A stretch of DNA of 64,000 nt from Longicatena caecimuris (lineage in GTDB: Bacteria; Bacillota_I; Bacilli_A; Erysipelotrichales; Erysipelotrichaceae). Within the stretch, counting starts at the first letter, position 1; every line of letters begins with the position of its first letter. This document shows positions 6,021 to 35,301 of this stretch, in pieces. The position numbers and the translations under genes were made by a program. The stretch lies in NCBI RefSeq assembly GCF_004341945.1, contig NZ_SMBP01000019.1, positions 1 through 64,000 of the forward strand, given 5' to 3'. The notes below the pieces were generated by a model. It searched no databases and was not told the DNA's origin. It saw nothing but the letters and a program-made list of their open reading frames with translations.

Positions 6021-6184
6021 ATCTTCACCATCCGTTTCCATATAGCATATGATTTCTCTTGGTTGCTTTTGTTAGTATGGACTGCCAAATTCATTTAAAA
6101 CGCAAGAAAGAAGTCTAAATCTTTCGATATCTTTATTGTATGAATTCAAGAAAAAGGATATGATAAACTCATAGAGAGGTATGA

Positions 6185-6442
6185 ATGAATATGAACATAA
6201 AAGATTATGCAAAAAAGATAAACAAGGAAGCCATCTATTGTTGCTATGACACTTATATAGAAAATCCGAAAGAATATGAAAAAATCACGAGATATCAGAT
6301 GCTTGCTTCCCTTTATGAAGTGTTTACACAAGAAGATGCTCTTTTTCACCTATTGAGTTACGAAGAATTTCTGTCATTAAAAGAATGTATAAAGAGTCCA
6401 AAGAAATCAGCAAATGGCTTTATTCCCCATAAAAACTCATAA
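6185..6442 (+). pseudogene. 5' part of a host gene split by the ICE
   Basis: The frame starts at an ATG behind GAGAGG and gives 85 residues (MNMNIKDYAKKINKEAIYC...), helical and acidic, ending at a TAA contributed by the element. TTGTAT and TATGAT, about 17 nt apart upstream, could be its promoter. Codon 85 is TCA at 6437-6439; the right flank also presents an in-frame TCA at 33994-33996 leading into 434 more codons. I infer this is the N-terminal part of one protein of about 519 residues. The function is not recognised. Confidence 0.75.
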
Positions 6443-6456
6443 GAATTTTGATTATC
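6431..6456. other. Left attachment junction
   Basis: Host AAAAACTCA meets element sequence TAAGAATTTTGATTATC. With the right junction (TCAAGTTTTT) the empty site would read AAAAACTCAAGTTTTT, an A-run and T-run around a short spacer, the kind of target Tn916-type integrases use. The exact 5-7 bp coupling sequence is not resolved. Confidence 0.65.
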
Positions 6457-6570
6457 TTTTCAAATGTTGTCAAATGCCGGTATAACCTGTATTTACGGGC
6501 TTTTCCGATGTTTTCTTTTCGGAAGATACATTGCATAAGCTGGCATATCCATGTATGACTTTGCTTTCAA

Positions 6571-6608
6571 AAGTAGTAAAAGTGTAGTAAATTTAGCCTT
6601 TACTACTA
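6571..6608. repeat. Integrase arm-type (DR2-like) repeats, left end
   Basis: AAGTAGTAAA (6571-6580), GTGTAGTAA (6582-6590) and an inverted TTTACTACT near the int stop codon match the AGTAGTAAA motif bound by the N-terminal domain of Tn916 integrase. The same motif occurs at the right end at 33920-33940. Confidence 0.7.
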
Positions 6609-7793
6609 AGCTGACAGCCGTTCCATTTCAGCTTTTGCAGAAACGAATGAACCATGTGCATAATAGCCAAGTGTCATGGTGATGTTGGAATGTCCCATAA
6701 TGTACTGTAAGGTATTTGGGTTCATTCCTCTGTTTGCCATGTTGGTACAGAATGTATGTCTGAAAGTATGTGGGGTCACATTCGGTAACTTGTCCTTATG
6801 TGTCTTGTTGTACTTCTTAATCAGCCCTTTAACCATACCCTCATAATTTCCTGCTACCTTTGGTAAGCCCTCACGGTTGAGGAACAAGAAACTGTTGTAA
6901 CCGTCAATCACGATTGGCTCTGCTTTCTTACGGTTCTTGCTAATGCGTCTAAACGCTTGATAAGCCTTTTCACTCATTGGGAGCTGGCGAATACCGCTGT
7001 TTGTCTTAGGCGGTTCAATGTAGTACCCGACTTCTGTATCTCTCAAAAGCTGGTGGTCTACATTGATTGACCTGTTTTGAAAGTCTAAGTCCTTAACTGT
7101 CAATCCACACAATTCTGAAACACGAAGCCCTGTTTCTAACAGAATGATGATTTCATCACGATACTTTTTATAAATCTTGTCGCTTTCCATAAAGGACAGC
7201 AGGTCTGCTTCCTGTTCTGGGGTTAATGCAATCTTAGGTTCAGTATCATCTTCCAGAACATCACTCAATTTGAAGTCGAAAGGGTTCTTTCTGATACAAT
7301 CGTCCTGTATTGCTACATAGAATGACGCTTTCAGTGAACGCTTGAAATTGCTTATCGTCTTGTAGGCATATCCATTTTCATTCATTCTGATACACCATTC
7401 TTTAGCGTCTGACTGTTTGACCGTATCAATGCTTCTAGCACCGAGGGAGTCTTTTTTCAGAATGTCCATAAGGTACTTGCGTCCCTTTTCCGTATTGCGT
7501 TTGATGTTCTTTCTGTGGCTGTTCTTCTTAGCGTAAAGCTGGCAGACAGTCATTTTCTTTCCAACAGTGTCAATGCCGTCATTAAGGTCTTTTTGTATCG
7601 CCTGTTCTTTTTCACGGAGTGAAATATCTTCACGTTTTCCTGCTGGGGTTTTATCCGTTGGAACAAGTTTCCAAGCATACTCAAACTTTGGCTCTCCAAG
7701 TGCGTTTATATATTTGTAGGCGTATCTTCCGTCTTTTCTCTGGCTCTCTCCAGTCCTTAAAATTCGTCCTTTGTTATCACGTCTTTTTTCCAT
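6606..7793 (-). CDS. int: Tn916-type tyrosine recombinase (integrase)
   Basis: The 395-residue protein is close to the roughly 405 of Tn916 Int. The N-terminal arm-binding domain (KGRILRTGESQRKDGRYAYKY) is followed by a core-binding domain (about 80-175) and a catalytic domain. The catalytic residues are visible: Arg224 (TGLRVSEL), Lys263 (PPKTNSG), His342 and Arg345 (HTFRHTF), His368 (GHSNITMT) and Tyr378. It integrates the element into AT-rich targets and, with Xis, excises it. The ATG is preceded by AAAGGAG. It is the last gene of the leftward xis-int unit. Confidence 0.96.
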   Translation of the reverse strand: MEKRRDNKGRILRTGESQRKDGRYAYKYINALGEPKFEYAWKLVPTDKTPAGKREDISLREKEQAIQKDLNDGIDTVGKKMTVCQLYAKKNSHRKNIKRNTEKGRKYLMDILKKDSLGARSIDTVKQSDAKEWCIRMNENGYAYKTISNFKRSLKASFYVAIQDDCIRKNPFDFKLSDVLEDDTEPKIALTPEQEADLLSFMESDKIYKKYRDEIIILLETGLRVSELCGLTVKDLDFQNRSINVDHQLLRDTEVGYYIEPPKTNSGIRQLPMSEKAYQAFRRISKNRKKAEPIVIDGYNSFLFLNREGLPKVAGNYEGMVKGLIKKYNKTHKDKLPNVTPHTFRHTFCTNMANRGMNPNTLQYIMGHSNITMTLGYYAHGSFVSAKAEMERLSA

Positions 7794-12341: not shown

Positions 12342-12359
12342 GATAAATTCTAATTTATC
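12342..12359. promoter_or_regulatory. Palindromic box 2, upstream of the acyltransferase
   Basis: GATAAATTCTAATTTATC is a perfect palindrome with 8-bp arms around a 2-nt centre. It overlaps the stop codon of the upstream hydrolase and lies about 40 nt before the acyltransferase ATG. Confidence 0.5.
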
Positions 12360-12879
12360 TATTCATCAATTCAAGAGTTTTTTCAAATGAAATACATTCT
12401 GCGTATCTTCCATTCCAAATGTACTCATTATAATATCTATAAGAATTTTCCGCTGTCATATACTCATTATCAAGCGTACTATTTGTATTTGCTGGAACAA
12501 TCATTTTAAGTCCATGCTCAAAACCACATTTCACTGTTGCATCCATGCAGTAATCTGTTTGTAGCCCTACAATAATAATTGTATCTTCTTCTTTTTCATG
12601 CAGGTAATCCAATAACCCTGTATCTCTAAAAGCACTGTTTACATTTTTATCAAAAACACGCTCATTTGGCATTGGCTGAAATTCTTCGTATATTTCATAG
12701 CCTAATGCGCCTTTAGTTAATTTCTGTCCAACACCATCATCATGTCTAACATAAATAACTTCTATATCATTATTGCGCGCCTCTTTGATTAGTGTTTTAA
12801 TACGATATACAAAAGTCTGTAATTCGTATAAGTCATTATTCATAATTAAATTTTGAGTATCAACAACCAGCAATATCAT
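12355..12879 (-). CDS. Isochorismatase-family cysteine hydrolase (first)
   Basis: The preferred start is MILLVVDTQ (12879); an ATG 5 codons earlier also exists. The catalytic triad of the family is visible: Asp in VVDTQ (residue 7 from this start), Lys78 in FDKNVNSAF and Cys111 in LQTDYCMDA. Such enzymes hydrolyse amides or enol ethers (nicotinamidase, N-carbamoylsarcosine amidase, isochorismatase). The closest style is the YcaC/PncA-like amidohydrolases. It directly follows the second copy (18 nt), so they are co-transcribed. The physiological substrate is not known. Confidence 0.85.
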   Translation of the reverse strand: MILLVVDTQNLIMNNDLYELQTFVYRIKTLIKEARNNDIEVIYVRHDDGVGQKLTKGALGYEIYEEFQPMPNERVFDKNVNSAFRDTGLLDYLHEKEEDTIIIVGLQTDYCMDATVKCGFEHGLKMIVPANTNSTLDNEYMTAENSYRYYNEYIWNGRYAECISFEKTLELMNR

Positions 12880-12897
12880 TCTATTACCTCCCATATT

Positions 12898-13443
12898 CTA
12901 ACTTTCAGTGAAATAATCAGCACTTGTAATAACATCTGCAAATTTACCGTTCAATGAAGCCATGTATACATCGTTTATAAAACTTGCAGGTAGCTTTCGC
13001 CCATTCCATTCTAAGTCTTTTGTTGCACATGCGTCTGATATAAGAGTGACGTAATAACCAAGTTCTTTTGCTGCTCTTACAGACGTATCTACACACATAT
13101 GTGTCATCATTCCACACATGACTAGGTTTTTTATTGACAATGAGGATAACTTTTCATGCAAGGTTGTTTCATGAAAACTGTTAGGCATATACTTTACAAT
13201 AATATTTTCTGAACGCAAAGGTTCTATATCCTTGTGGATTTGAACACCTTTTGTGTTTGGAAGAAAAAAGGTTGCGTTCTCTGGTGATATGTGTTGCACA
13301 TAAAAAATAGGGAGTTTTTCTGTTCTAAAATGTTTCAGCAATTTTTTTGTTACTGTTAGTGCTTGTTCCGCTTGAAAAAGCTCACACTTCCCATGAGGAA
13401 AATAGTCATTTTGAATGTCAATAATTACTAAGGCAGTATTCAT
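12898..13443 (-). CDS. Isochorismatase-family cysteine hydrolase (second)
   Basis: The 181-residue protein has Asp9 (VIIDIQNDY), Lys84 (IIVKYMPNSF) and Cys117 (GMMTHMCVDT), the full catalytic triad. HMCVDTSVRAA is typical of nicotinamidase-like and streptothricin hydrolase-like members. It is only distantly similar to the neighbouring copy, so a recent tandem duplication is unlikely; two substrates or a heteromer are possible. It heads a leftward unit that continues into the other hydrolase and probably the acyltransferase. Confidence 0.87.
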   Translation of the reverse strand: MNTALVIIDIQNDYFPHGKCELFQAEQALTVTKKLLKHFRTEKLPIFYVQHISPENATFFLPNTKGVQIHKDIEPLRSENIIVKYMPNSFHETTLHEKLSSLSIKNLVMCGMMTHMCVDTSVRAAKELGYYVTLISDACATKDLEWNGRKLPASFINDVYMASLNGKFADVITSADYFTES

Positions 13444-13481
13444 TTTATCAAATCCTTTCTCTTTATAATCTTTTCAGCTCT

Positions 13482-13499
13482 CCAAAATTCTAATTTATA
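13482..13499. promoter_or_regulatory. Palindromic box 3 (partial), upstream of the hydrolase pair
   Basis: CCAAAATTCTAATTTATA shares a 12-nt core with box 2 (AATTCTAATTTAT region) and keeps one full arm. It lies about 40 nt upstream of the second hydrolase ATG. Confidence 0.4.
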
Positions 13500-13592
13500 T
13501 TACTTTCATCTTTAAATGGCAAAAATGCTTGTAAGCTATTTTAAAATGTCGTATTACCTTATATAACTTGCCTTTCAAAATAATTTCTCATA

Positions 13593-14705
13593 CTATTCAA
13601 TAGGTTTAATTTTGAAAAAATCTTGTATTGTAGGTAGCTTTTTAATGTTTTGAGAATATGTTTTATTCTTAAAATTGCTATCAATATTAAAGGAATGCCA
13701 TTTATTCTCTTCCAAACCTCCCCAACAAATATCAATTTTTCCCAAAGATAAGTTAAAGACAATACTTTTAATTGTTCCAAAATAATCGTCATAAAATGGA
13801 AGCATTAGACCATTAGGATAAGGGGTTAGAAGTAATTCTTTAATTTCTGGCTCATCTATAAGAGGAGTTTGCGTAACCCATTTTTCCAAACACTTGTATC
13901 TTTGGATTGAATTTTTCATTGCATATGGCTCAATATTTATCATGTTTGGAATATGAATATGATTAGTGGCAATGAGATAATCTTTTTTATTATCCTTTTG
14001 AATAAGATTTATTTCTTTTTTTCCGTCCATAATTTCAATAAGTACGGCTTCTCCACTTTTATCGGCTATCATCAAATTGATATTACAGGCTATAGGCATA
14101 TCATATAAAGTATCTAAAGCTTCTTTGACGTTTTTGCAGTTTTCTAATAGGGTTCTTACAACTGCCCAAAATTGCAAACCAATGACTTTAGGTTTTTTCC
14201 CTCCTTGATAATCATTGACAGGTCTACCACATGCACTTTGAGATATTGCTAACCCACACTCATTCATCCCTTCGCCACGTCCAAATTGCATAATATTTGT
14301 ACCTATATGTGAATACTTATTTGTAACTGATGTTTTACTTAAGCAAAAATCATCCATTTGTTCTGAATAGTCGTAATTTCTTGCCATAATTGTATGATGA
14401 TTTTTAGTTTTGTTAGGCAAAAGAATTAGTTGACTACAAGCTGGAGTTAAGTAGGTTAATGGAACAAAAACAATTTTACTTTTTGATATACCCAAGACAT
14501 CAGAAAAACCTTGTAATTCTTCATTCAATCCAGGACAATATTTGTCAAAAAGTTCAAATACATTTTTTTCATTGTCTGAAATAGCTTGAGAGTTTATAAA
14601 AATATTTTTTAAATGATTATTTTCCAAAACTATATTACCTAATTGCTTTCCTATATCATAACTTGTACCTTTTAGTTCAAGGAAATTCACATTTATATTT
14701 TTCAT
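13593..14705 (-). CDS. C45-type Ntn hydrolase (linear amide C-N hydrolase)
   Basis: The 370-residue protein resembles the acyl-CoA:6-aminopenicillanate acyltransferase (C45) branch of the Ntn hydrolases. GTSYDIGKQLG near the N-terminus, Cys90 in PACSQL as the likely autocatalytic nucleophile, the ARNYDY motif (108-113) and GMNECGLAIS are all family hallmarks. Self-cleavage before Cys90 would give a two-chain enzyme that hydrolyses or transfers acyl groups on linear amides such as N-acyl amino acids, penicillins or conjugated bile acids. The substrate is open. Two nucleotides separate it from the upstream cysteine-rich gene, in one operon under the MerR-type promoter. Confidence 0.83.
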   Translation of the reverse strand: MKNINVNFLELKGTSYDIGKQLGNIVLENNHLKNIFINSQAISDNEKNVFELFDKYCPGLNEELQGFSDVLGISKSKIVFVPLTYLTPACSQLILLPNKTKNHHTIMARNYDYSEQMDDFCLSKTSVTNKYSHIGTNIMQFGRGEGMNECGLAISQSACGRPVNDYQGGKKPKVIGLQFWAVVRTLLENCKNVKEALDTLYDMPIACNINLMIADKSGEAVLIEIMDGKKEINLIQKDNKKDYLIATNHIHIPNMINIEPYAMKNSIQRYKCLEKWVTQTPLIDEPEIKELLLTPYPNGLMLPFYDDYFGTIKSIVFNLSLGKIDICWGGLEENKWHSFNIDSNFKNKTYSQNIKKLPTIQDFFKIKPIE

Positions 14706-23383: not shown

Positions 23384-23471
23384 AAAAGGGCAGTCAGCAC
23401 GTCTGGCCGTCTGCCCTTAAATCAGAAAAGCTGTCTGAATATCCCTTAAAAGGGTTATGATCAGACAGCTT
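23384..23471 (-). terminator. Two hairpins between ardA and orf17
   Basis: AAGCTGTCTGA and its complement TCAGACAGCTT (23426-23471) form a stem followed by TTTT on the minus strand. A second stem AAGGGCAG/CTGCCCTTTT (23384-23418) follows. They could partially separate the ardA genes from the channel operon or act as processing sites. Confidence 0.6.
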
Positions 23472-23961
23472 ATTGTTGAATTTCGCACATGCCGTAACTG
23501 GTTTCGATAAAATAACCGCCGATTTCCAAGTTGCGACCATATGCTTCATAATCAATATAATCTTGTAAGCTGGGCGGTATTTCTCCCAGAGTTTGCAGTT
23601 CGTCTACAAAATACCGTGCCACGTCCTCCATGCTGTCACAGTCGGGGTAGAAGTAAATCTGGTCTTTGTGTTCAACCACACCCTCCAAACTTCCGTAGTA
23701 TGAAATAAAATCGTCCAGACTGTCCACGACTTCCTCTGGTAGTTCTTCTATCATTTCATACATCTGGTTCAATTCGTCAATGGAGATATATTCTGACACT
23801 TCACAAGGGAAGTTGTCCGTATCATGGACGGAGTATTCTTCATATTCGCCGTTCAGCCCGATACGCTCTGCGATTTCTTCAAAATCGAGAGGAAACGAGA
23901 ACCAGTCCCCAACTAAATATCCCTCGTTGTACTTGCCGAGATTGGCAATGTAGACACGCAT
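23470..23961 (-). CDS. ardA: ArdA-family antirestriction protein (downstream copy)
   Basis: The 163-residue, very acidic protein has the ArdA layout: RVYIANLGKYNEGYLVGDWFSFPLD at the start, the antirestriction motif region with LDDFISYYGSLEG, and a terminal DYEAYGRNLEIGGYF block. ArdA dimers mimic DNA and inhibit type I restriction enzymes when the ICE enters a new cell. It is paralogous to the gene just upstream; Tn916 has only one (Orf18). Confidence 0.93.
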   Translation of the reverse strand: MRVYIANLGKYNEGYLVGDWFSFPLDFEEIAERIGLNGEYEEYSVHDTDNFPCEVSEYISIDELNQMYEMIEELPEEVVDSLDDFISYYGSLEGVVEHKDQIYFYPDCDSMEDVARYFVDELQTLGEIPPSLQDYIDYEAYGRNLEIGGYFIETSYGMCEIQQ

Positions 23962-23991: not shown

Positions 23992-24492
23992 CTACCACGG
24001 TATCTCAAAAATGCCGTGGTCTGTTTCTATGAACCGTCCGTTTTCATCAAGGCTTTGTCCATAGGCTTCAAAGTCAAAGTAACGCACACAATCTTCCGAC
24101 AGAGAGTGAAACGCTGGGTCATCAGCCAGCACATGACGGGCAACGTCTGTCATGGAATTACAGTTGGCATAATGGATAATGTCATGCCTGTAATTGTGCA
24201 GTTCGTCCAGATTGGAATAATACGCCATGAAAGCAGGTAATTCTTCTCTGATTTCTGCTGGCAGGTTTTCATACATGCGGTATAAATCATTTAGAGTATC
24301 GACCGTTGTTGCTTCGCTCACATCATCTGCAAAGGGAAGTTCCATTTCCACAATGCGGTAATCTTCGCTGTCAGCTTCCACGCCAAGCAGTTCTTCAAAC
24401 TCTGTTTCATCAATCGGCAAATCAAACCAAGCGGAGGGGAATTCGCCGTTTTTAGGGATTGTTGCTTCTATCAAAACTCTTAATTCTTCCAA
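23992..24492 (-). CDS. ardA: ArdA-family antirestriction protein (upstream copy)
   Basis: The 166-residue acidic protein carries LPAFMAYYSNLDELHNYRHDI and YFDFEAYGQSLDENGRFI, which align with the same blocks in the adjacent copy. Overall similarity is only moderate, so the duplication is old or came by separate acquisition. Different surfaces may target different type I enzymes. The genes are 30 nt apart. Confidence 0.92.
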   Translation of the reverse strand: MEELRVLIEATIPKNGEFPSAWFDLPIDETEFEELLGVEADSEDYRIVEMELPFADDVSEATTVDTLNDLYRMYENLPAEIREELPAFMAYYSNLDELHNYRHDIIHYANCNSMTDVARHVLADDPAFHSLSEDCVRYFDFEAYGQSLDENGRFIETDHGIFEIPW

Positions 24493-24618
24493 TTTATTTC
24501 ACGTCCTTTCGTTTGTCTGGGGTTTCTTCTTGTACCATTCCTTACCCCCTTTCATTCCCCCTAAGCCCAGCTCCACTAGGGGGAAAGGTGGGTTTTGCAG
24601 GTGTGCAAAACCTGTTAT
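24493..24618 (-). promoter_or_regulatory. Hairpin-rich gap between orf19 and ardA
   Basis: GGTTTTGCA/TGCAAAACC (24592-24613) forms a 9-bp stem with a 4-nt loop, and CCCCCTA/TAGGGGG (about 24564-24586) a second. Neither has a clear T-run, so these may be mRNA processing sites or part of a single-strand origin used after transfer, as described for Tn916 near here. Confidence 0.45.
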
Positions 24619-24840
24619 CTAAGCACCAATAATCTTATTGAACAGGTTTAACAGTACGTCTTTCACACCGCCAGCGTTGAACACAAGACCTACCGCAATC
24701 AAAGCTACCACCAGAAAGCCGATAAGTTTTGAAAACTCACGCTTGAAGCCCAGATACACGCCGATAACCACGATTGCCATTAAAACAAGGCTCTGTGCAT
24801 TGCTTAAAAACCAGTTGTATAAGTTCTGCCCGAAGTTCAT
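24619..24840 (-). CDS. Small membrane protein (Orf19)
   Basis: The 73-residue protein starts MNFGQNLYNWFLSNAQSLVL and has two hydrophobic segments (about 17-34 and 42-58). It matches Orf19 of Tn916, a small integral membrane component of the transfer system (TcpD-like). The start codon overlaps the stop of the upstream small gene (ATGA). Confidence 0.88.
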   Translation of the reverse strand: MNFGQNLYNWFLSNAQSLVLMAIVVIGVYLGFKREFSKLIGFLVVALIAVGLVFNAGGVKDVLLNLFNKIIGA

Positions 24841-24971
24841 TCTTCCTCACCTCCTTTCATGCGCTCCATCTCCCTGTCTGCCTGTTTTCCTGCAATAAGC
24901 AGACACATGAGCATGACACCGATACCACCGCCCAGCGATACCAGCAGTAAATCTTTCAATAATTCCAGCAT
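24837..24971 (-). CDS. 44-residue DUF3789-like membrane peptide
   Basis: An ATG at 24971 with AAAGGAGG 9 nt upstream opens a 44-codon frame (MLELLKDLLLVSLGGGIGVML...KGGEEE) with one membrane helix. Its last codons supply the SD of orf19 and its TGA overlaps the orf19 ATG. Such DUF3789 peptides sit at this position in many Tn916-like elements. Confidence 0.85.
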   Translation of the reverse strand: MLELLKDLLLVSLGGGIGVMLMCLLIAGKQADREMERMKGGEEE

Positions 24972-24974
24972 TTC

Positions 24975-26177
24975 TTAGTCCTCCTTTGATTGAAAAACGA
25001 CTTCCTCACTGGAAGCCGTCTGCTGTTCTATGATTTTTTCGTGTTTGTCTGTGAGTTTTGCGTCCTGTACCAGACGGTCAATGATGTTCGTGCCGTTGAT
25101 ACGGTCAATCTTCTTTGCCATTTTCAAGGTAGGGGCGACCTGCCTTGCTATCCAGTTCAGCGTCCGTTCCAGCGTGTACGGTTCTGGTTTGGTCGTTAAT
25201 TTCAAACGCCCACGATCAGAACCGATAAACCACGCCCAGCGGTCATTGACCTGCCAATCACTGCGCTTTTTCCCGTCCTCCTTGTCCACGAAGCGCATAT
25301 AGCGGTTGATAATGTCAAATGCTGTCCGCTCTGCGTCATAGTAGGTCAGCAGGTCACGCACGGCATAATAGGCACGGTCATTTTTCAGTCTGATTTCAAA
25401 GCGGTTCTTCACAGGTGTTTCTTCTAGCGGAGTACCCAGCTTTGCATACTGTTCCTGTGCCTTTTCGTAAATGCAGAAGTAAACTTCTGATTTTAGAGAA
25501 CCGATATATAACGTATGTCCCATACCTGCCTTGTCCTGTTCGTGGCTCTTAATCAGTTGCCCTGAAGCATAGGACTTGAAACTGCGGAACACGGAGATAC
25601 ATTCCTCACAGTCGCATTTCTCTGTAAGCTCTGGAATGTCAAGTATTCCTGCCTTGTCATTGATTGCTAGGTCTAACCGCTTCATTACACCGCCGTCAAC
25701 CAGTGCGTCCATGAGGAAGTCATACCAGCTTCTTTCCTGTGCCAGCAGGTAGCTTTCCATTTGCCGACAGCCTTTGCCTTTCAGTTCCAGCAACACGCCT
25801 TTTTCCTCGTCCGCAGAAGTAAGCACGAATATATCCCCGATATAGTAATGCTCCGTATAGCTGTAAAAGCCGAAGTCCTCATGTAGCATGAAGTCCATGT
25901 TGAGCTTTAATATATCTCGTATTACGTGCTGTACGTCCATTGTAGGGAAGCGTATTCTTACATAGTCGAACAACATTTCCAGCGAATTGTCTGGATTGCA
26001 TTTTTCCAGTGCTACGGTAAGCTGTCCCTTGATTTCCTCTGTCAGCTTGATTTTCCCGTTTTCTATACGGCTTACATGTTCACGGCTCATGCCAGCTACC
26101 AGCGCAAGCCTGTTTTGTGATACTCCATAGACAGAACGCTTATCTTTAAACTCTGTTATCCAGTCTGTTTCATTCAG
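24975..26177 (-). CDS. Relaxase, MobT/Rep_trans type (Orf20), CTG start
   Basis: This is the initiator-type relaxase of Tn916-like elements, which nicks oriT and also starts rolling-circle replication of the excised form. The frame is open upstream of the first ATG (26090) and encodes the first half of a helix-turn-helix (YGVSQNRLALVAGMSREHVSRIENG), so the real start must be earlier. The only sensible one is CTG at 26177, 8 nt after GGAGG, giving 400 residues, the length of Tn916 Orf20. The catalytic domain (about 100-330) includes MKRLDLAIND and NRFEIRLKN. The C-terminus is charged. Confidence 0.9.
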   Translation of the reverse strand: MNETDWITEFKDKRSVYGVSQNRLALVAGMSREHVSRIENGKIKLTEEIKGQLTVALEKCNPDNSLEMLFDYVRIRFPTMDVQHVIRDILKLNMDFMLHEDFGFYSYTEHYYIGDIFVLTSADEEKGVLLELKGKGCRQMESYLLAQERSWYDFLMDALVDGGVMKRLDLAINDKAGILDIPELTEKCDCEECISVFRSFKSYASGQLIKSHEQDKAGMGHTLYIGSLKSEVYFCIYEKAQEQYAKLGTPLEETPVKNRFEIRLKNDRAYYAVRDLLTYYDAERTAFDIINRYMRFVDKEDGKKRSDWQVNDRWAWFIGSDRGRLKLTTKPEPYTLERTLNWIARQVAPTLKMAKKIDRINGTNIIDRLVQDAKLTDKHEKIIEQQTASSEEVVFQSKED

Positions 26178-26190
26178 TTGTCATTCCTCC

Positions 26191-26411
26191 AATCTGGTAA
26201 TGTGACATTTGACTGCTGTTGTCACACCCGTTAGAAAACAGCGGAAACCCTTGTACCTTGCGGAGATTTCCGTATTTCTTGATACTGTTTTCTGGTATTT
26301 TGTGCCCCTCTGTTAGATACCGAGGGGCTTAATCGTTTGGCAGGGCAAGCCCTGCCAAACAGGAACGGCACTTTACGGTCTTGTTGACCGCAAAGCACCG
26401 TTCCTATTGGT
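26191..26411. other. oriT region with nested palindromes
   Basis: This gene-free interval between orf20 and orf21 is where Tn916 oriT lies. GCCCCTC (26304-26310) and GAGGGGC (26322-26328) flank GTATCTAACA (minus strand), matching the Tn916 nic region with its GTATCTAACAG motif. Next to it are an 11-bp perfect inverted repeat TTTGGCAGGGC/GCCCTGCCAAA (26336-26359) and a 45-bp nested palindrome (26361-26405) with arms AGGAACGG/CCGTTCCT, CTTT/AAAG and CGGTC/GACCG. GTGACA/TGTCAC also occurs near 26202-26226. Confidence 0.8.
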
Positions 26412-26810
26412 CTATCTGTTCATGCCGATATAAAGCACTATAAAATCAATATCTGATTTAAGACAGGCTTTCAGCGTATCTTCTGGAATTTCACTTCCAC
26501 GAATATCTTCTTTGAGAAAGTCCTTTCCCACAAGCTCAAAAGCATAGTCAATACGGCTGTTACAGATAGAATGTCGGCTATCCAAGCGTATACAGAAACG
26601 ACACGGCAAGTTACGCACCTTATAAATAATTTCATCTGTGATTTTATCTATCCTTGCTTCAAAGCGATTTTTTGGATTGATACTAAATGGTTTATATCTG
26701 TCTGCTGTCAATACGTCACAGTCTGAAAGAAATTGTTCATAATTCAAACAGATATATTTCATCCTTTTTCCCGTTGGTGTGTGAAACACTTCTATTTCTT
26801 TATATTTCAT
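26412..26810 (-). CDS. Unrecognised 132-residue protein between tcpA and oriT
   Basis: The protein starts MKYKEIEVFHTPTGKRMKYICL, with mixed alpha/beta composition and scattered cysteines (CRFC near 71-74). No family is recognised and Tn916 has no gene here. It starts 4 nt after orf21, so it is translated with the coupling protein and its product appears just when the relaxosome forms. An accessory role in oriT processing or in DNA modification with the Mom-like gene is possible, but only from position. Confidence 0.7.
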   Translation of the reverse strand: MKYKEIEVFHTPTGKRMKYICLNYEQFLSDCDVLTADRYKPFSINPKNRFEARIDKITDEIIYKVRNLPCRFCIRLDSRHSICNSRIDYAFELVGKDFLKEDIRGSEIPEDTLKACLKSDIDFIVLYIGMNR

Positions 26811-26814
26811 GTAT

Positions 26815-28209
26815 TTAGTCCTCCATTGGTTGTTCTTCTGGTACAGCTTTTCTTACATTAGCAAGCGTACCAATAGTTTGTAAAAAATCATGTTCTTTTG
26901 GTACAAGTGGGGTGTAAAACTCTGATATGACGCTTGTACCCACATCACAATAACCACGCCCTTTGATACGCTTTTGAAAGAACTTCTTTTGCGTATCGCT
27001 TCCAAACATCATGCCGTAGCCAAGCTCACTCATGCGCCCTAATGCCACACGGAAGTTGAAGTTATCTCTGATACCGTCACTGAAATACTTTGCGTCTGGA
27101 CGCTGACAGGCAAGGATAAGGAAGTAGCCAGCCTGTCTGCCTAACATGACGATTTTCTTTAGCTGGCTTAATATGGCTACGCTTTCCTTTGTGGTTAAAC
27201 ACTCCATGAACGCCACGTATTCGTCAAAGATAAGGAAGTGCGGAGCAAGCCCCAGATAGGCGTAGTTCTGTCCTGTTTTGTAGTTTGGCATGAGCTTCAT
27301 TGCTTCACTTCTTGCCACCATGCCGTCATAAAAGCCATTGACGCAATCAATCATATCTTCCTTTTTGTAGTAGACCTTATCCATGACCGTTCCCAAGTCC
27401 GCAAGGTCGGCGTTCTTTGGGTCGAGGATATAGAGGACGGTATTTGTCCGCAACAGGGCTTCAATGATAGTTAAGATAAAGTAGGTCTTACCGCCACCAG
27501 TTCCACCACAGATAAGGGCATGGGGGAGAGCGTCATATTCCCAGACAAGGTTTTTCATCAAGCGCAAGCCCCCGTTTTCTGCCTGTACTTCCTCTATGGA
27601 AATGCGATTTGCTATCATGTCATAGAGCAGGGTATATTCCACGTAGCCGTCATACAACAGCTTGTCGGTCAACTCGCAATACAGACCGCTTTCCAGCTTA
27701 TCTTCCAACTGCAAGAGCTGGTCTTGATACTTCCCCAGCGTGATTTCACACTGGATATGAAGCAAGCCTTTTTCCATGCGGTAATACATTCGGGGAAAGT
27801 AGCTGATTTTCTCCTTTGACTTACCAGATTGCAGGTCAGTGAAGAAGCTGTTTCCCTGTATCGTCACTGCTTCATACCAGCCGTTTTCCAAGACCATACG
27901 TGCCAGCTTTTGGCGGTGTATAAGCTGTTTATAACGGTCAAAGCAGAAGCGGTAATACAGAAAAGCGACCAGTATACAAATACCAGTCGCTATAATAATT
28001 GTTATGAAGTTGTAAGGGGAGAGCGACAACGCCAGCCCGTCATTTCTGATTAAGCTAAACGTGTCCCAATCGGTACGCATAATCTGTCCCAAGTTCAAAA
28101 GCAGTATGACCGCCACGAACAGAAACAGGAGCGAACCGCCACAGAAGCGGTACACAAGGGACTTATCGCTGGCTCTGATACGCTTCCCCTTATATTTCAG
28201 AATAGACAT
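26815..28209 (-). CDS. tcpA: FtsK/SpoIIIE-type coupling ATPase (Orf21, TcpA)
   Basis: The 464-residue protein has two N-terminal membrane helices (about 22-42 and 67-88), then an FtsK/HerA ATPase with Walker A CGGTGGGKT (about 232-240) and Walker B FLIFDEYVAFM. It couples the relaxase-DNA complex to the membrane channel and pumps DNA. It matches Tn916 Orf21. Its start overlaps the Mom-like gene by 13 nt. Confidence 0.94.
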   Translation of the reverse strand: MSILKYKGKRIRASDKSLVYRFCGGSLLFLFVAVILLLNLGQIMRTDWDTFSLIRNDGLALSLSPYNFITIIIATGICILVAFLYYRFCFDRYKQLIHRQKLARMVLENGWYEAVTIQGNSFFTDLQSGKSKEKISYFPRMYYRMEKGLLHIQCEITLGKYQDQLLQLEDKLESGLYCELTDKLLYDGYVEYTLLYDMIANRISIEEVQAENGGLRLMKNLVWEYDALPHALICGGTGGGKTYFILTIIEALLRTNTVLYILDPKNADLADLGTVMDKVYYKKEDMIDCVNGFYDGMVARSEAMKLMPNYKTGQNYAYLGLAPHFLIFDEYVAFMECLTTKESVAILSQLKKIVMLGRQAGYFLILACQRPDAKYFSDGIRDNFNFRVALGRMSELGYGMMFGSDTQKKFFQKRIKGRGYCDVGTSVISEFYTPLVPKEHDFLQTIGTLANVRKAVPEEQPMED

Positions 28210-29009
28210 AAGACCTCCTGTTGGTTGTTATAGTGCTGGGTATTGTACTGACAGACATTTTTATTGAAATGTGGCTGTAATATTTTTTCGTATCTCCTGT
28301 TTGCAATACGCCTTTCAAAATACAGGCTGTTATTCTTAGGATAGCTATGTTGAGTATAAGTTGGATATTTTTTCAAAATATGCCTTGCTTCCTGTGTCAA
28401 AGGGTAGATATAACGAAACATAAGACCGTTGATTTTTTCTATCTTCTTGTGTTCGCAAAATTCGTGTGTCAGCCAGTGGCGTTTTTCCACTCCGTCATAA
28501 ACTGCATTTTCTTCCAGCAAAATCCTTGCACTTCTAGGGTGTATCTTTTCCAACGTCTGGCTGTCACGATATACACTTGTCTTAAAACTTCCGCAATAAT
28601 AAAAATTGGAAGCCTGATAGACATAACCGCATTTTCCCTCGATACCGTCTGCCAATGTGTATAAGAAAAGGCAGTCTGTATACTTTTGCAACCATTTGAT
28701 TAGGTACGAAAGTGTAAGACTGCCGAAATACTGTGTATGGTTCATTTCTGGAAGAAAACACATTTTGCCGATTTCCAGATAATCTGCCGTAACAAGATTA
28801 TGTGACGGAAACAACTTGTGTAACGTCTGCAAGGGCTGTGTACCCCATCCTAATTCCACCACACCCAATAATTTCTCATGCTGGTATATCCCTAAGAAGT
28901 AACGGCATAACCGAGGTACCACTTTTGAATAGTGATACCTGCGGATAAATGCGACTGCCTGTTCTTTCGGGAGTTCCTTGATTGATAAAGACATATCCTT
29001 GTGGGTCAT
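28197..29009 (-). CDS. Mom-family DNA adenine modification protein (likely)
   Basis: The 270-residue protein has the look of the Mom family: an RYHYS motif (24-28), a beta-rich GNAT-like core (LGVVELGWGTQP), YLEIGKMC (78-84) and the block ADGIEGKCGYVYQASNFYYCG (120-140) with KIHPRS after it. Phage Mu Mom converts adenine in DNA to its N6-carbamoylmethyl form, which blocks many restriction enzymes. The C-terminal 90 residues are Lys/Tyr/His-rich and unmatched. It sits between orf22 and orf21, transcribed with the transfer genes, so the element could be protected before it leaves. Assignment rests on motif recall, without a search. Confidence 0.68.
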   Translation of the reverse strand: MTHKDMSLSIKELPKEQAVAFIRRYHYSKVVPRLCRYFLGIYQHEKLLGVVELGWGTQPLQTLHKLFPSHNLVTADYLEIGKMCFLPEMNHTQYFGSLTLSYLIKWLQKYTDCLFLYTLADGIEGKCGYVYQASNFYYCGSFKTSVYRDSQTLEKIHPRSARILLEENAVYDGVEKRHWLTHEFCEHKKIEKINGLMFRYIYPLTQEARHILKKYPTYTQHSYPKNNSLYFERRIANRRYEKILQPHFNKNVCQYNTQHYNNQQEVLCLF

Positions 29010-29014
29010 AGTGT

Positions 29015-29404
29015 CTATTTCCCATTAGGCATATCTTTTTTTGCTTGCTGGTTCTGTGAGCTTATAGGCTGTCCCTGTCTGTTCTTTAACACAATGTCGT
29101 CTGCCTTAATAAACCAGTCCACGTCTGCCCCTTGAAAGGTGGCGTTTGCTACCGTATCCGCAACAGGGTTGATAAGCTCCACCTCTGCGTTGTAGTCAAA
29201 TTCCTTTAACGGAACAGTGGCAGGAATGGACACCTGTATCATGCGTCCCTGTCCACGGCATTTAAGGTCATAAGTGCGTTCTTTGATTTCATCTGAAACC
29301 GTTCCGTCCTCATTCTGGATATGCACCTCACGTCTTAATGCCGAAAACTTCAACTGCCCGAATGTCTTTTCTTTTTCAATCACGATACCGTTTGCTAATC
29401 TCAT
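29015..29404 (-). CDS. YdcP/DUF961 protein (Orf22)
   Basis: The 129-residue protein starts MRLANGIVIEKEKTFGQLKFSA and contains ELINPVADTVANATFQGADVDW, features of the YdcP (DUF961) family of Tn916 and ICEBs1. These small proteins help replication and relaxosome function of the ICE; the exact role is not settled. It pairs with the paralogous Orf23 upstream. Confidence 0.9.
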   Translation of the reverse strand: MRLANGIVIEKEKTFGQLKFSALRREVHIQNEDGTVSDEIKERTYDLKCRGQGRMIQVSIPATVPLKEFDYNAEVELINPVADTVANATFQGADVDWFIKADDIVLKNRQGQPISSQNQQAKKDMPNGK

Positions 29405-29419
29405 ATGCTTTCGTCCTCC

Positions 29420-29743
29420 TTATTTATTCTCTGCTGGTAACATATCATCTGCCAGCAGGATATAGTTTGTAAACCCTCTCGTGCCGATTTTGTAGCCCTC
29501 TGCGGTAATGCGTGGGTTAATCAGCTTCACTTTCTGTTCTGGCTGGAAATGCTTTTCCCCAGCTTCAGCAGGAAGCACCACGATAATATCGTCTGCCCTC
29601 TGCACATCACTGTAAAGGTTGTAGCTTCGGGACACTGCCGTCATGCGTCCGTTGATCCTGCGCTGTACAACCTCGCTTTCTCCTGCATATTCCAGATTGC
29701 CGAATGTCTTTTCCATGTTCGGCACTACAAATTTAAGTTCCAT
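29420..29743 (-). CDS. YdcP/DUF961 protein (Orf23)
   Basis: The 107-residue protein (MELKFVVPNMEKTFGNLEYAG, LINPRITAEGYKIGTRGFTNY) is the second DUF961 member, paralogous to orf22, as at the start of the Tn916 transfer operon. It is the first gene of the long leftward conjugation unit, with AACGAGGT upstream as a modest SD. Confidence 0.9.
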   Translation of the reverse strand: MELKFVVPNMEKTFGNLEYAGESEVVQRRINGRMTAVSRSYNLYSDVQRADDIIVVLPAEAGEKHFQPEQKVKLINPRITAEGYKIGTRGFTNYILLADDMLPAENK

Positions 29744-29952
29744 ATGTTTTACCTCGTTTCTTTCTTTTGATAGTTATTGTTTATATGGGGAGCTACACTC
29801 CCCATGCCCCTAGTGGACTGTTTTTTTCTATCAATCAAAAAGACGATTGACAGAAAAGAAACAGTTTGAAGTTGTGTTCTGCGGTAGGCGTTCTATTGCG
29901 GAGGGGAACGGGACTGCTCCTGTATATATTTTCTTGCCATAGTGATACCGCC

Positions 29953-32900
29953 CTATGACTTCTTAGTTTTGCGTTTCTTCAAGAAGTATGTTCCAGCTAA
30001 TGCAATGCCAGAAGCACCCAACAGAACAAGCAGACCGATAATATTTGTTGTATCGCCTGTCTTTGGACTGTCCGTCTTTTGCACTGGTGTATCTGGCTTA
30101 TCTGGTGTGGACGGCTTTTCTGGTTCTTCTGGAGCAGGTGTTTCTGGTTTCTCTTTGACCGTTACCGTCTGCCCTTTGTCGTTAATGTCCTTATGTTCTG
30201 TAACCTTTTTCGGTTCATCTGGATTGCTTAAATCATACAATTCTTCAAAGGTTACAAGGTCTTTTCCTCCAAGCTCGGAAGCGTCAAAGGTAAAGGCAAT
30301 CTGGACTTCCATTGTTTCACTGTCTGCGACAAATGAATAGTCATTTTCCACACGCTTGCCGTCAATAACAAGCTCTGCATTTTCTTCCTTAATCATCTGC
30401 CAGCCCTTTAGCTGATACTTTGTACCAATTTCCAGACCGTCCAGCTTAGCCGTATCAATGATAGTTACTTCCTTTCCAGCTTCCACGACTTTTTCGCCGT
30501 CCTTGCTGGTAGCAGTGGTGTGGATATTGATGATACGTTCAGTAATCAATACCGTTTGTCCGTCATCCTCAATGTCCTTGTGTTCTGCTACCTTGACAGG
30601 CTCTTTCGGATTGGACAGGTCGTACAATTCCTCAAAAGTTACAAGGTTCTTTCCACCAAGTTCAGAAGCATTGAACGTATATTCAATCTCAATTTTCATT
30701 TCCTCACTGTCAGCAGTAAAGGTATATTCACTTTCCACACGGTTGCCGTCAATGACAAGCTCTGCGTTTTCTTCCTTTAACATCTGCCAACCCTTTAACT
30801 GATACTTAGTACCTTTTACAAGCCCGTCCAGCTTGACGGTATCAACAATAGTGACCTCTTTTCCTGCAAGGATAGATTTTTCCCCGTCCTTGCTGGTAGC
30901 TGTGGTATGGATAGAGATTTCTTTTTCGTATTCATCTGTCAAAGTACCTAAATCAATGACGGTTCTATCTCTTGACACTACAATGTCAAAAGCAGGAATG
31001 AGCTTGAAGCCTTTGTTGCTGGCACAGCGTAATTCCTCAATCTCGTAAGTATCGTAAAGCAATGCACCCTTGCTGTCGTCTGGCTCTGATGAACCAAACC
31101 ACACGCCGTCCTCGCTGGTCTTTCCTGCATTGGTATTGTGCTTGTGGGAAGCCCAATCCGAAGCAGTGGAGAACTGCCCGTTTTTGTCTGTCACGACAAT
31201 GTGGCTTTCGCCTGTGGTCTTGCTGGTAATCTTGAAAGGCACATCTGCTAATCTCTTATGAGTGCCAGCACCAATCTTCACACCCTCAATGTCGCCACGC
31301 TTAATCTGGTTATAGATAGAGCTTTCTTCGCTTGTAAGGTCAACGATTTTCCCATTCTCTTTGATTTCAAATTCACGGGAAACCGCACCTGTTCTTAGAT
31401 AGCCCTCTGGGGCTTTGCTTTCGTCAATACGGTATCTTCCATATGGGAGCGTATCAGAAGCAGTGGAAGCGATACCGTCAATGCCTGTGTGGATTGTCTT
31501 TACCACTTCGTCTTTACCGAACAGTTTACCGCCCACCAAGACAGCATTTTCATTTAAGGAAGTAATACTAAACGCTGTATCTTTTAGTGTCGCACCGCCT
31601 TGTGGCTTTGTATCTTTGGTTTCAAGGTCACGCTTTTGTATCTTCACACCGCCACGGATAACTTGATTGTAGGCAGAGTTTTCCTTGTCTGTAAGGTCAA
31701 TGATTTTCCCGTTCTCTGTGATTGTAAATTCATGGGAAACCGCACCTGTTGTCAAGTAGCCCTCTGGGGCTTTGGTTTCGTCAATGCGGTATGTTCCATA
31801 TGGAAGCGTGTCAGAAGCAGTGGAAGCGATACCGTCAACACCTGTATGGATTGTCTTTACCACTTCGTCTTTGCCGTATAATTTCCCGTCAACCAAGACA
31901 GCATTTTCATTTAAGGAAGTAATACTAAACGCTGTATCTTTTAGTGTCGCACCGCCTTGTGGTTTCGTGTCCTTTGTTTCAAGGTCACGCTTCTGAATTT
32001 TCACACCGCCACGGATAATCTGGTTGAAAATGGCGGTTTCCTCGCCTGTAAGGTCAACGATTTTCCCATTCTCTGTGATTTCAAATTCACGGGAAAGCAC
32101 GCCTGTTGCCAGATAGCCCTGTGGCGACTTGCTTTCGTCAATGCGGTACTTTCCATAAGGGAGCGTGTCGGAAGCAGTGAAAGCGATACCGTCAATGCCT
32201 GTATTGATCGTCTTTACCACATCATTCTTTTTGTAGAATGAACCCTCAACCAGAACAGGGCTTTCATTCAAGGAAGTTATGATAAACTCTGTATTTTCCA
32301 GTATCGCATTACCTTGTGGGGTTGCGTCCTTTGTTTCAAGGTCACGTTTCTGTACTTTGACACCGCCACGGATAACCTTGTCAGATACGGAGTGCTGGTT
32401 GCTTCCAGATAATACGGCAAGGTCGCCGTCCTCTGTAATTTGTGTTACATACATGCCCTTAATCTGTTCCGTGCTTCCATTGGCTTGCATATATGCACCC
32501 TCTAACAAGTAACCTGTTGGGGCTTTGGTTTCTTCAACGGTTATCGTTCCTAAAGGCAGACAGTTGATACCGTTCTGTGAATAGAAACTGTCCCCAGCTA
32601 CTTTGTACTTGTCAGCTAAACGGGTAACGTAGTGTACTGTGCCGTCACTATCTTTTTCAGCAAGCGTCTGTGTTGTCCACGTTCTTGTGGCTTCTGCTGG
32701 AAGATTGCCCTTGTTGTAGTAACCGTCATAATACTTCCATGTAAATTCTGCACCTGCAAGGGAAGCGTTCCCTTGTGGGTTGTCTTGTCCTGTTTCCAAG
32801 TCAATCTTGAAAAGTTCCAGCAAGGTTTCTGTGACTTTTGGCGTGTCGCTCACTTTCAAAGTGGCAGTCTTGCCAGCTTCCACGGTCAGCGGATAAACAT

Positions 32901-33726
32901 TCTTGTCTAACTTGAAGCCAGCAGGAGCTTGTTGTTCCTTGATATATACTGTGCCAGCTTTGACTTCTACGGCTTCGGTATTCCCGTTACTATCTGTCGT
33001 AAGGGTGGTAATGACATTCTGGCAATTCTTATCAGAATAGACACCGTAGACCGCCCCAGCAAGGGAATACACATCACTGCCGTTTGTAATGCTGGCATTG
33101 GAGGAAACTTTCTGTAACTTTGCGTTTCCTACATTCAGCTTCGCCCAGAACTGCCCGATATCCTGCCCCTTGCCAGTGTAGATATAACCGCCACATTCAT
33201 AGCGTCCTTTGTTGGCTTTCACAAAAGCCTTTGCACCAGCGTAGACTTCATCTTGTATGGCTTTTGAGATTTCATCATAGGAAGCACGGACGTTATCACA
33301 CTGCCAGCCCAGATGAACGCTTAACCTCTGCCATACAACGCATTGTTCCAAAAGATAAAGCTGTTTGTGGTTCAGTCCTGTATGTCTTGCCCCGTACTGC
33401 TTGACATATTCAAGGGATAAAGCAACGTCCGCTATCTGGTCGGCACTCATGCGTGAACTTGCGTCTGAACGTGTCTTATAGCCAGACTGAAAGTCCGTGT
33501 TGATGTCAACACAGTATGCTGTTTCGCCCTCTACGGTCATAATGCCCTCATGGAATGTAGAACCGATACTGCCGTCATTCATAACCTTTTCTACATATCC
33601 TGCCTTTTCCTCTGCGTCTGTCCAGTATTGCTTTTCTGACGCATGGACTGTCGAAGCTGGCAGGGTAGTAAACACGGTTGCAAGGGTAAGCATACCTGTA
33701 AGCAATCGCTTTAATTTCTTTTTCAT
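29953..33726 (-). CDS. Thioester/VaFE-repeat LPXTG-type surface protein
   Basis: From MKKKLKRLLTGM (33726, behind AAAGGAGC) the protein has 1257 residues and a signal peptide ending near ASTVHAS. An N-terminal thioester (TQXA-like) domain has a Cys in AYCVDIN and a Gln in LLEQCVVW. Then come Cna-B/prealbumin-type modules, including three nearly identical 119-residue repeats (RGGVKIQKRDLETKD...). After them, two VaFE-type repeats (IHTTATSKDGEK... LVTFEELYDL), a proline-rich stalk and SPKTGD-hydrophobic-KKRKTKK for sortase anchoring. Such proteins form covalent bonds with host or neighbouring-cell surfaces. It sits where Tn916 has orf24. Confidence 0.9.
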   Translation of the reverse strand: MKKKLKRLLTGMLTLATVFTTLPASTVHASEKQYWTDAEEKAGYVEKVMNDGSIGSTFHEGIMTVEGETAYCVDINTDFQSGYKTRSDASSRMSADQIADVALSLEYVKQYGARHTGLNHKQLYLLEQCVVWQRLSVHLGWQCDNVRASYDEISKAIQDEVYAGAKAFVKANKGRYECGGYIYTGKGQDIGQFWAKLNVGNAKLQKVSSNASITNGSDVYSLAGAVYGVYSDKNCQNVITTLTTDSNGNTEAVEVKAGTVYIKEQQAPAGFKLDKNVYPLTVEAGKTATLKVSDTPKVTETLLELFKIDLETGQDNPQGNASLAGAEFTWKYYDGYYNKGNLPAEATRTWTTQTLAEKDSDGTVHYVTRLADKYKVAGDSFYSQNGINCLPLGTITVEETKAPTGYLLEGAYMQANGSTEQIKGMYVTQITEDGDLAVLSGSNQHSVSDKVIRGGVKVQKRDLETKDATPQGNAILENTEFIITSLNESPVLVEGSFYKKNDVVKTINTGIDGIAFTASDTLPYGKYRIDESKSPQGYLATGVLSREFEITENGKIVDLTGEETAIFNQIIRGGVKIQKRDLETKDTKPQGGATLKDTAFSITSLNENAVLVDGKLYGKDEVVKTIHTGVDGIASTASDTLPYGTYRIDETKAPEGYLTTGAVSHEFTITENGKIIDLTDKENSAYNQVIRGGVKIQKRDLETKDTKPQGGATLKDTAFSITSLNENAVLVGGKLFGKDEVVKTIHTGIDGIASTASDTLPYGRYRIDESKAPEGYLRTGAVSREFEIKENGKIVDLTSEESSIYNQIKRGDIEGVKIGAGTHKRLADVPFKITSKTTGESHIVVTDKNGQFSTASDWASHKHNTNAGKTSEDGVWFGSSEPDDSKGALLYDTYEIEELRCASNKGFKLIPAFDIVVSRDRTVIDLGTLTDEYEKEISIHTTATSKDGEKSILAGKEVTIVDTVKLDGLVKGTKYQLKGWQMLKEENAELVIDGNRVESEYTFTADSEEMKIEIEYTFNASELGGKNLVTFEELYDLSNPKEPVKVAEHKDIEDDGQTVLITERIINIHTTATSKDGEKVVEAGKEVTIIDTAKLDGLEIGTKYQLKGWQMIKEENAELVIDGKRVENDYSFVADSETMEVQIAFTFDASELGGKDLVTFEELYDLSNPDEPKKVTEHKDINDKGQTVTVKEKPETPAPEEPEKPSTPDKPDTPVQKTDSPKTGDTTNIIGLLVLLGASGIALAGTYFLKKRKTKKS
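31264..32380 (-). repeat. Three 357-bp direct repeats in the adhesin gene
   Basis: The phrase TTCAAGGTCACG recurs at 31621, 31978 and 32335, exactly 357 bp (119 codons) apart, and the intervening DNA is near-identical over long stretches. Such identity suggests recent duplication or ongoing recombination that changes stalk length. Confidence 0.85.
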
Positions 33727-33919
33727 GTTCTTAATGCTCCTTTCGTTTTGGGTAATAAAATAGCCGTCCATTTCTGAACGGCTGGAAATAGAAAAGGAAC
33801 GCTTCATTGTGGGCGTTCCGTAGTCTAAATGCTTTATTCAATTTTGATGTTTCAATACTGATGTGCTGTACCATATCTTTGCAAAACTAAGAATATCAGC
33901 GTATCAAGGCTCATTCGTC

Positions 33920-33947
33920 AGTAGTAAATAAGTAGTAAAATGAGTAG
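33920..33947. repeat. Integrase arm-type repeats, right end
   Basis: AGTAGTAAATAAGTAGTAAA contains two tandem copies of the DR2-like AGTAGTAAA motif, with a third partial GAGTAGTT. They mirror the left-end sites and define the right att arm of the ICE. Confidence 0.7.
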
Positions 33948-33984
33948 TTCTAATCCTTAGATATTGCGATAGATACAGTGTTTT

Positions 33985-34006
33985 AGGGGATAATCAAGTT
34001 TTTGCT
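33985..34006. other. Right attachment junction
   Basis: Element GGGGATAA meets host TCAAGTTTTTGC. GATAATCAA (33989-33997) is the inverted copy of TTGATTATC at the left end. In-frame TCA at 33994-33996 equals the last host codon on the left, so excision here would rejoin the split gene. Confidence 0.65.
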
Positions 34007-35301
34007 GTGTTTTTGACACAAAACCTTATGAAACTTTATTACATAAGTTTCTTGTCATCTATAATTTTAATGAATTGTTGGTACCTAATGAAATCCAAGC
34101 AGCTGTGAAAGCAACTGAGCAGAAATATACGGAAGAAGACTTTCGAAAAAAAGATACGCTCAATCACCTCATGATTGGTATCTTACGTTGTTATGGCATT
34201 TTAACATTAACAGAATTTGACATGTTATGCGAAAAATATGCGATAGCGATTCCTTCTATTGAAGAGTATTATCTTACTGCTTTATACTTACATCCTTATT
34301 TTTCCTTATATTCAAGACAGGATGGAAGCATGTTACTTGTGAACGAGGAGATTTTTGATTACATAGATCAAGTCATTGATATACAAAACAGCCATGTTTA
34401 TTGCGTATGTGATCGAAAAAAAGATGAGCTGCTTGCGATTGGCACAACCGGTGTAAATACAAATCATCCAGCAATCAATACGCTATATAAAATATTATCA
34501 GAATCGACATTCACCTATATAGAAAATGGATTTTGGGCAGATTTTTTCTTTGCTGTACATACCTGTAAAGACCCAGCCAACCTCATACAATGGTTTGATG
34601 ATCTATCAATTGATGACGATATGCTTGCATCACTTTCAGAAGCGGTTTTAGATGCTTATTTCAACACCCCTAGTGCTGCACTATTTGGCTGTACACCGAT
34701 GGAATACATGGACTATATTAATGAACAAAGTCAACAAAGTATGCAAGGGAATGCCTCACTTGATGAAAATGACACAGCATTATTCTATGATATTTATTTA
34801 GCCTTGTTAGAATATACAAATAAGAAATATAAAATCGTGAAAGGATTGAAAAAAATCTATCACCGCAGCCATCTAGAACCGGAAAAAATGACAAAAATTC
34901 GTAATTTCTTATTTGAGCATCGAAACATCATTGATGATTTTATAAAAAAGAATCCTTTTCAATTCGATGAGGAAAAACTCGCTTTGATCAAAGACTTTAA
35001 ATATGCGGTAAAAGGCATGGGTATCATTATAAAATATGAAGCAGATTATACTGTTATATCTATGCAAGATGACAATTTTTATGCCATCTTAGGTTTAACT
35101 ACGAATATTGACGAGGTGATTCCGAATGAACAACTTCCTTATCCGGTGCAAATTACCTTATTGCCATGGCGCAATAAAATTATTTATGATGGCTTGCTTG
35201 AAAGCTATGCGATACAGGTAGGAAAGAATATGAAAAAGATGATTGCCGAGGAATTGGCAAATCATCACCTTATTACTAGCATTAAACCATTTCAAGCATA
35301 A
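33997..35301 (+). pseudogene. 3' part of the host gene split by the ICE
   Basis: The frame is open from the element end and has no good ATG or SD before about codon 27 (only TTG at 34075), as expected for an interrupted gene. It encodes 434 residues: a helical region (HLMIGILRCYGILTLTEFDM) and a long acidic C-terminus. There is no recognised family; the style is of large helical proteins of Erysipelotrichia, some with SEC-C tails, though none is seen here. A strong terminator follows. With the left part it would make about 519 residues. Confidence 0.78.

Follow-up and report, generated by a model that had tools for sequence, protein, structure and literature searches.

The window, by which we mean the whole 64,000-nucleotide stretch of DNA analysed here, carries a Tn916-type conjugative element whose transfer operon includes a gene for a 270-aa protein. 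Judged by its profile matches and predicted fold, this protein is a genuine member of the Mom family. In phage Mu, Mom attaches a small group to adenines in DNA, at their exocyclic N6. We propose that the enzyme in the window hypermodifies adenines of the excised element in the donor cell as an anti-restriction measure, and we assign this best reading a probability of about 0.62. The features on which the argument draws, all on the minus strand, are:

6606–7793 (−): Tn916-type tyrosine integrase, with the Tn916 integrase DNA-binding domain
23470–23961 (−): ArdA-family antirestriction protein, profile match 4e-38
23992–24492 (−): ArdA-family antirestriction protein, profile match 1.1e-16
24975–26090 (−): MobT relaxase (orf20), NF041493 at 670.8 bits with a cutoff of 600
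26202–26207 (−): TGTCAC, core of a putative MobT binding site downstream of nic, after the consensus in PMC9371924
26305–26327 (−): oriT nic hairpin CCCCTCGGTATCT^AACAGAGGGG, with a CT'AA nic site (PMC9371924), upstream of mobT
26412–26810 (−): 132-aa protein between FtsK and oriT, without a Pfam or NCBIfam match
26815–28209 (−): FtsK/TcpA-type coupling protein (orf21), its start overlapping the end of Mom by 13 bp
28197–29009 (−): Mom-family protein (GNAT fold), 270 aa, assigned by profile, fold and conserved residues
29015–29404 (−): DUF961/YdcP protein at the Tn916 orf22 position, ending 5 bp before Mom
29420–29743 (−): DUF961/YdcP protein at the Tn916 orf23 position, by profile match

Family and fold of the Mom protein

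The Mom reading frame starts with ATG, has no internal stops and is the only Mom copy in this genome. Residues 8–225 of its product match the Pfam profile PF25680 (Mom) from position 2 to 202 of 202 (E = 1.8e-60, 204.5 bits), which passes the curated cutoff of 27.1 bits across the whole domain, and PHROG 1384, 'Mom-like DNA modification protein', matches as well (9.3e-29); neither PADLOC nor NCBIfam contains a model fitting Mom. A phmmer search of the PDB returned 8bv8, 'Methylcarbamoylase mom' (2.2e-9), which was also the sole PDB match of a profile made from the Mom relatives (E = 9.4e-59).

An AlphaFold model built from an alignment of 51 relatives reached a mean pLDDT of 92.2. Its best matches in the PDB were both chains of 8bv8, described there as 'phage Mu protein Mom inactive mutant S124A' (Foldseek E = 6.5e-14). 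Structural alignment to 8bv8 gave a Z of 20.1 over 196 residues, the best among the top 999 chains; the next value was 12.7, which none of the remaining chains, mostly GNAT proteins, exceeded. Mu S124, the residue mutated in 8bv8, aligns with S97 of the window protein, a position that is Ser in 50 of the 51 relatives and Thr in the other. Invariant in the alignment are H26, Y27, E79, D121, G128, Y131, A133, N135, H157 and Y200, and R199 is nearly so. The earlier note had recognized Mom from two motifs, RYHYS and ADGIEGKCGYVYQASNF, and had named structure prediction against Mu Mom as a check. Both motifs are present, at residues 24–28 and 120–136 respectively, the best fold is that of Mu Mom, well above other GNATs, and the family identity now has strong support from the profile, the fold and the retained active-site serine.

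The likeness to phage Mu Mom thus extends to the family profile, the full-length GNAT-type fold, the catalytic serine and the other invariant residues. The two proteins differ in sequence, with only ~25% identity and K82 in place of Mu R111, in a C-terminal extension that runs ~40 residues past the end of Mu Mom in the window protein and its clade, and in carrier, a conjugative element instead of a phage. In Mu, com precedes and overlaps mom, whereas no com zinc-finger gene overlaps the mom start here; the gene directly upstream is that of the DUF961 protein, and a Com-like partner was rejected for want of room upstream of Mom. By analogy with the Mu enzyme, the window protein is predicted to catalyse N6 adenine hypermodification in DNA.

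The transfer operon and the order of entry

The element is of the Tn916 type by its MobT relaxase, Tn916 integrase, DUF961 pair, FtsK coupling protein and two ArdA proteins. It extends from ~6.55 kb to ~33.95 kb, with approximate ends; a direct-repeat search for these ends found only an 11-bp AAGTAGTAAAA pair near 6571 and 33930. The earlier note had placed Mom within a conjugation operon together with two ArdA genes, and the gene order confirms this. Two DUF961 genes, FtsK, MobT, ArdA and T4SS genes follow one another as in Tn916 and Tn925 (pCF10). Unlike these, the window element has two ArdA genes and a 132-aa gene before oriT, and it holds Mom between orf22 and orf21, where Tn925 has nothing. 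The DUF961 protein at the orf22 position is by homology a relaxosome OB-fold protein, after the OB-fold role described for ICESt3 (PMC12614216). Mom is co-directional with its neighbours, and the Shine-Dalgarno AGGAGG of FtsK sits in the last Mom codons, a packing that suggests co-transcription. Promoter matches were at the level of chance, and an Rfam scan of 24000–34200 gave no match.

Several further features of the element and its surroundings were recorded. A strong terminator-like hairpin lies at 27964–27991 (−), within the FtsK coding sequence and soon after the gene start. Cargo at 12355–14705 (−) comprises two isochorismatase-family hydrolases and an acyl-CoA:6-aminopenicillanic acid acyltransferase-like protein. 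A 1284-aa surface adhesin with near-identical repeat blocks followed by an LPXTG-like anchor is encoded at 29953–33807 (−); its place is taken by a SrtB-anchored collagen-binding adhesin in a plasmid-borne relative from C. difficile (L025). Just beyond the right end of the element, a 408-aa reading frame at 34075–35301 (+) is without a Pfam match.

The nic hairpin folds well, is unique within the window and is conserved in 23 records, including the window's own. Relatives of the 132-aa protein encoded beside it (27–42% identity) occupy the corresponding position in several further ICEs, and the protein is therefore probably a conserved accessory factor of the region around oriT. As a partner of Mom it was rejected, being found in elements that lack Mom and missing from L001, L002 and L004. 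In ICEBs1, entry into the recipient begins at the relaxase-bearing 5' end, with the region downstream of oriT in the lead (PMC4595007). Mom lies ~1.9–2.7 kb upstream of nic, on the late-entering side, with mobT and both ArdA genes on the early side. If the ICEBs1 polarity holds here by homology, Mom would be among the last genes to enter the recipient, and mobT and ArdA would be early. Because Mom, unlike ArdA, is expected to enter late, we favour action in the donor.

As seen across loci L117–L141 and L025–L027, the gap between orf22 and orf21 is a variable cargo site inside the transfer operon. In some Tn916-type elements, including Tn925 on pCF10, the DUF961–FtsK gap is empty (55–86 bp). 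In others it holds unrelated genes, among them those for GPP34-like and MBL-fold proteins, HTH regulators, 2-thiouracil desulfurase, DUF3795, DUF3796 and lipoprotein-like proteins. Mom is absent from most of the sampled Tn916-type elements and also from a second one in this genome (L129; G000 contig C14, FtsK at 56812–58146), in which a DUF3795 protein and another reading frame occupy the slot. We rejected an anti-restriction-specific slot, as unrelated genes fill it in other ICEs; for the same reason, the position of Mom is by itself no proof of a role in transfer. The case for such a role comes from its recurrence in different conjugative systems, its maintenance, and its known protective effect in Mu.

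Relatives in conjugative elements and phages

Mom relatives at 63–78% identity were found at 16 genome loci and in four conjugative contexts. One is the same orf22–orf21 slot of Tn916-type ICEs, in Blautia, Faecalicatena, Enterococcus, Streptococcus, Staphylococcus, Peptostreptococcus, Eubacterium and Salinicoccus. Another is a divergent MobT element from Enterococcus termitis, in which Mom is immediately followed by the gene for an LPXTG surface protein. The third, a CD1110-VirB4/PrgI/TrbL element, was found in Blautia parvula and Clostridium symbiosum; its Mom gene is flanked by VirB4, which has a group II intron, and by the gene for the CD1108 hydrolase, and a DarA_C protein is encoded downstream. 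In the fourth, from E. phoeniculicola, Mom stands ahead of an LPXTG protein gene, with a VirD4-like coupling protein encoded nearby. At locus L013, Mom is adjoined by a group II intron maturase (5801–7591); downstream, at 12500–13270, this Mom-bearing conjugative element encodes a DarA_C protein (defence against restriction).

Identity of 99.8–100% over 7–15 kb links Mom-bearing loci across Enterococcus, Streptococcus and Peptostreptococcus (L004–L008), and likewise across Enterococcus, Staphylococcus and Eubacterium (L009–L012); on this sequence evidence, Mom-bearing elements have spread recently between genera. One Mom copy, that of Salinicoccus, is broken, as is FtsK of the same element. 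Mom is rare among related genomes, with any match present in 4 of 196 genomes of the family and 3 of 392 genomes of the phylum, and a tblastn search of PLSDB plasmid records gave none at the limit used. The IMG/VR record IMGVR_UViG_2878502230_000004 (L017), which shares 9.2 kb with the Blautia element at 100% identity, is a Tn916-type ICE and not a virus. Between the window and Blautia Mom genes, pS is 0.845 and pN 0.158, a constraint as strict as that on neighbouring transfer genes. Synonymous change is saturated and protein change limited, and the comparison therefore indicates that the gene is maintained by purifying selection.

Moms of Edwardsiella phage vB_EtaM_ET-ABTNL-9 and Psychrobacter phage vB_PmaS_Y8A share 52–55% identity with the window protein over nearly the full length, including the C-terminal extension, whereas their context is that of phages of Gram-negative hosts and not an ICE. 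Phages of these two host genera are the nearest named ones in the Mom tree, in which all nine ICE rows fall into a single, fully supported clade (100/99) whose neighbours are Moms from phages. The tree fits one passage from phages to ICEs, a direction that we infer, with later movement among conjugation systems. Separate acquisitions by Tn916-type elements, which the tree splits, are not claimed, because a single Tn916 clade was not rejected (p-AU 0.209).

A proposed role in the donor and its alternatives

Tn916-type transfer genes are expressed upon excision of the element. Because Mom is co-directional with these genes and packed among them, the excised circle would be modified in the donor. 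There the enzyme would modify DNA adenines with a small group at the exocyclic N6, on the circle and probably also on neighbouring host DNA. Modified adenines would then be carried into the recipient on the transferred strand, and second-strand synthesis would leave hemimodified sites at which many restriction endonucleases would be blocked. Phage Mu DNA is modified before it is packaged as dsDNA. Conjugation, in contrast, moves one strand, and protection would therefore depend on hemimodified sites resisting cleavage. ArdA inhibits type I enzymes, and Mom would complement this inhibitor, which is encoded on the first-entering side of oriT. As to the host itself, no HSDR_N matches, indicative of type I restriction, were found in the genome. 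Mom modification protects the DNA of phage Mu from restriction (PMC6483171, PMC10286901), and conjugating DNA is hit by restriction to a varying degree (PMC11602122). Marking of element DNA before transfer, as the earlier note had suggested, is plausible and favoured in view of the four conjugative contexts and the location on the late side of oriT, although the operon slot, a cargo site that takes unrelated genes in other Tn916-type elements, is no proof in itself.

Mom might instead be a passenger of the cargo slot, an enzyme that modifies DNA for a benefit outside transfer, for example by shielding the element or its host from nucleases of other mobile elements or phages. The diverse slot genes of related ICEs, which have no link to anti-restriction, the empty slot of Tn925, and the many Tn916-type elements without Mom, including the second in this genome, would all be expected of a passenger. 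We nevertheless consider this unlikely, as Mom occurs in at least four different conjugative contexts and thus beyond the orf22–orf21 slot, fits the operon without a gap while providing the ribosome-binding site of FtsK, and belongs to elements that spread recently between genera. Mom could also act mainly in the recipient, where newly made protein would mark both strands of the circular dsDNA before or during integration. Expression of transfer genes from the circular form is part of the regulation of Tn916-type elements. This form is present in the recipient too (model cited in PMC9154091), which speaks for recipient action. However, under ICEBs1 polarity Mom would be among the last genes in, after ArdA, and protection produced in the recipient would come late, and we regard this account as quite improbable.

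A Mom fold might also serve another reaction or substrate, be it ordinary N-acetylation, a different adenine adduct, or an RNA or protein target. The chemistry of GNAT enzymes is versatile (PMC8072286), and the low identity to Mu Mom, the R111 to K82 exchange and the C-terminal extension leave scope for divergence. Yet proteins from ICEs, phages and Mu have all kept the active-site serine together with the H-Y, E, D, Y, N, H and R-Y positions, some of the closest relatives from phages and viruses are encoded directly next to cytosine or adenine DNA methyltransferase genes, and the fold match to Mu Mom stands well clear of that to other GNATs. A different chemistry or substrate is, in our view, very unlikely. 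Adenine hypermodification of the excised element in the donor accommodates these observations best. That Gram-positive conjugative elements hypermodify their own DNA in the donor before transfer via a phage-derived Mom, so that the single strand arrives restriction-proof, and that this module, passed between unrelated conjugation systems, contributes to their unusually broad host range, is a wider proposal to which we give somewhat less than even odds.

The means by which conjugative elements are known to counter restriction are chiefly protein inhibitors, ArdA among them, and ordinary methyltransferases. Orphan methyltransferases are enriched in the leading regions of plasmids, where anti-restriction genes also lie (PMC11541004). 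These plasmid systems resemble our proposal in that conjugative elements counter restriction by means that include DNA modification; they differ in using methyltransferases from an early-entering region, whereas the window element has a hypermodification enzyme on the late-entering side. The term Mom is absent from the searched text of that article. Our literature search, which covered mainly open-access papers, yielded no reports of Mom in ICEs.

Collectively, our data suggest that conjugative elements borrowed a phage trick to evade the restriction enzymes of new hosts. A hypermodification enzyme would guard against many restriction types at once, acting on the DNA itself in the donor. If this is true, unusual adenines are predicted in the DNA of the excised ICE, and phage DNA hypermodification would be linked to the wide host range of the type of element that spreads resistance genes.
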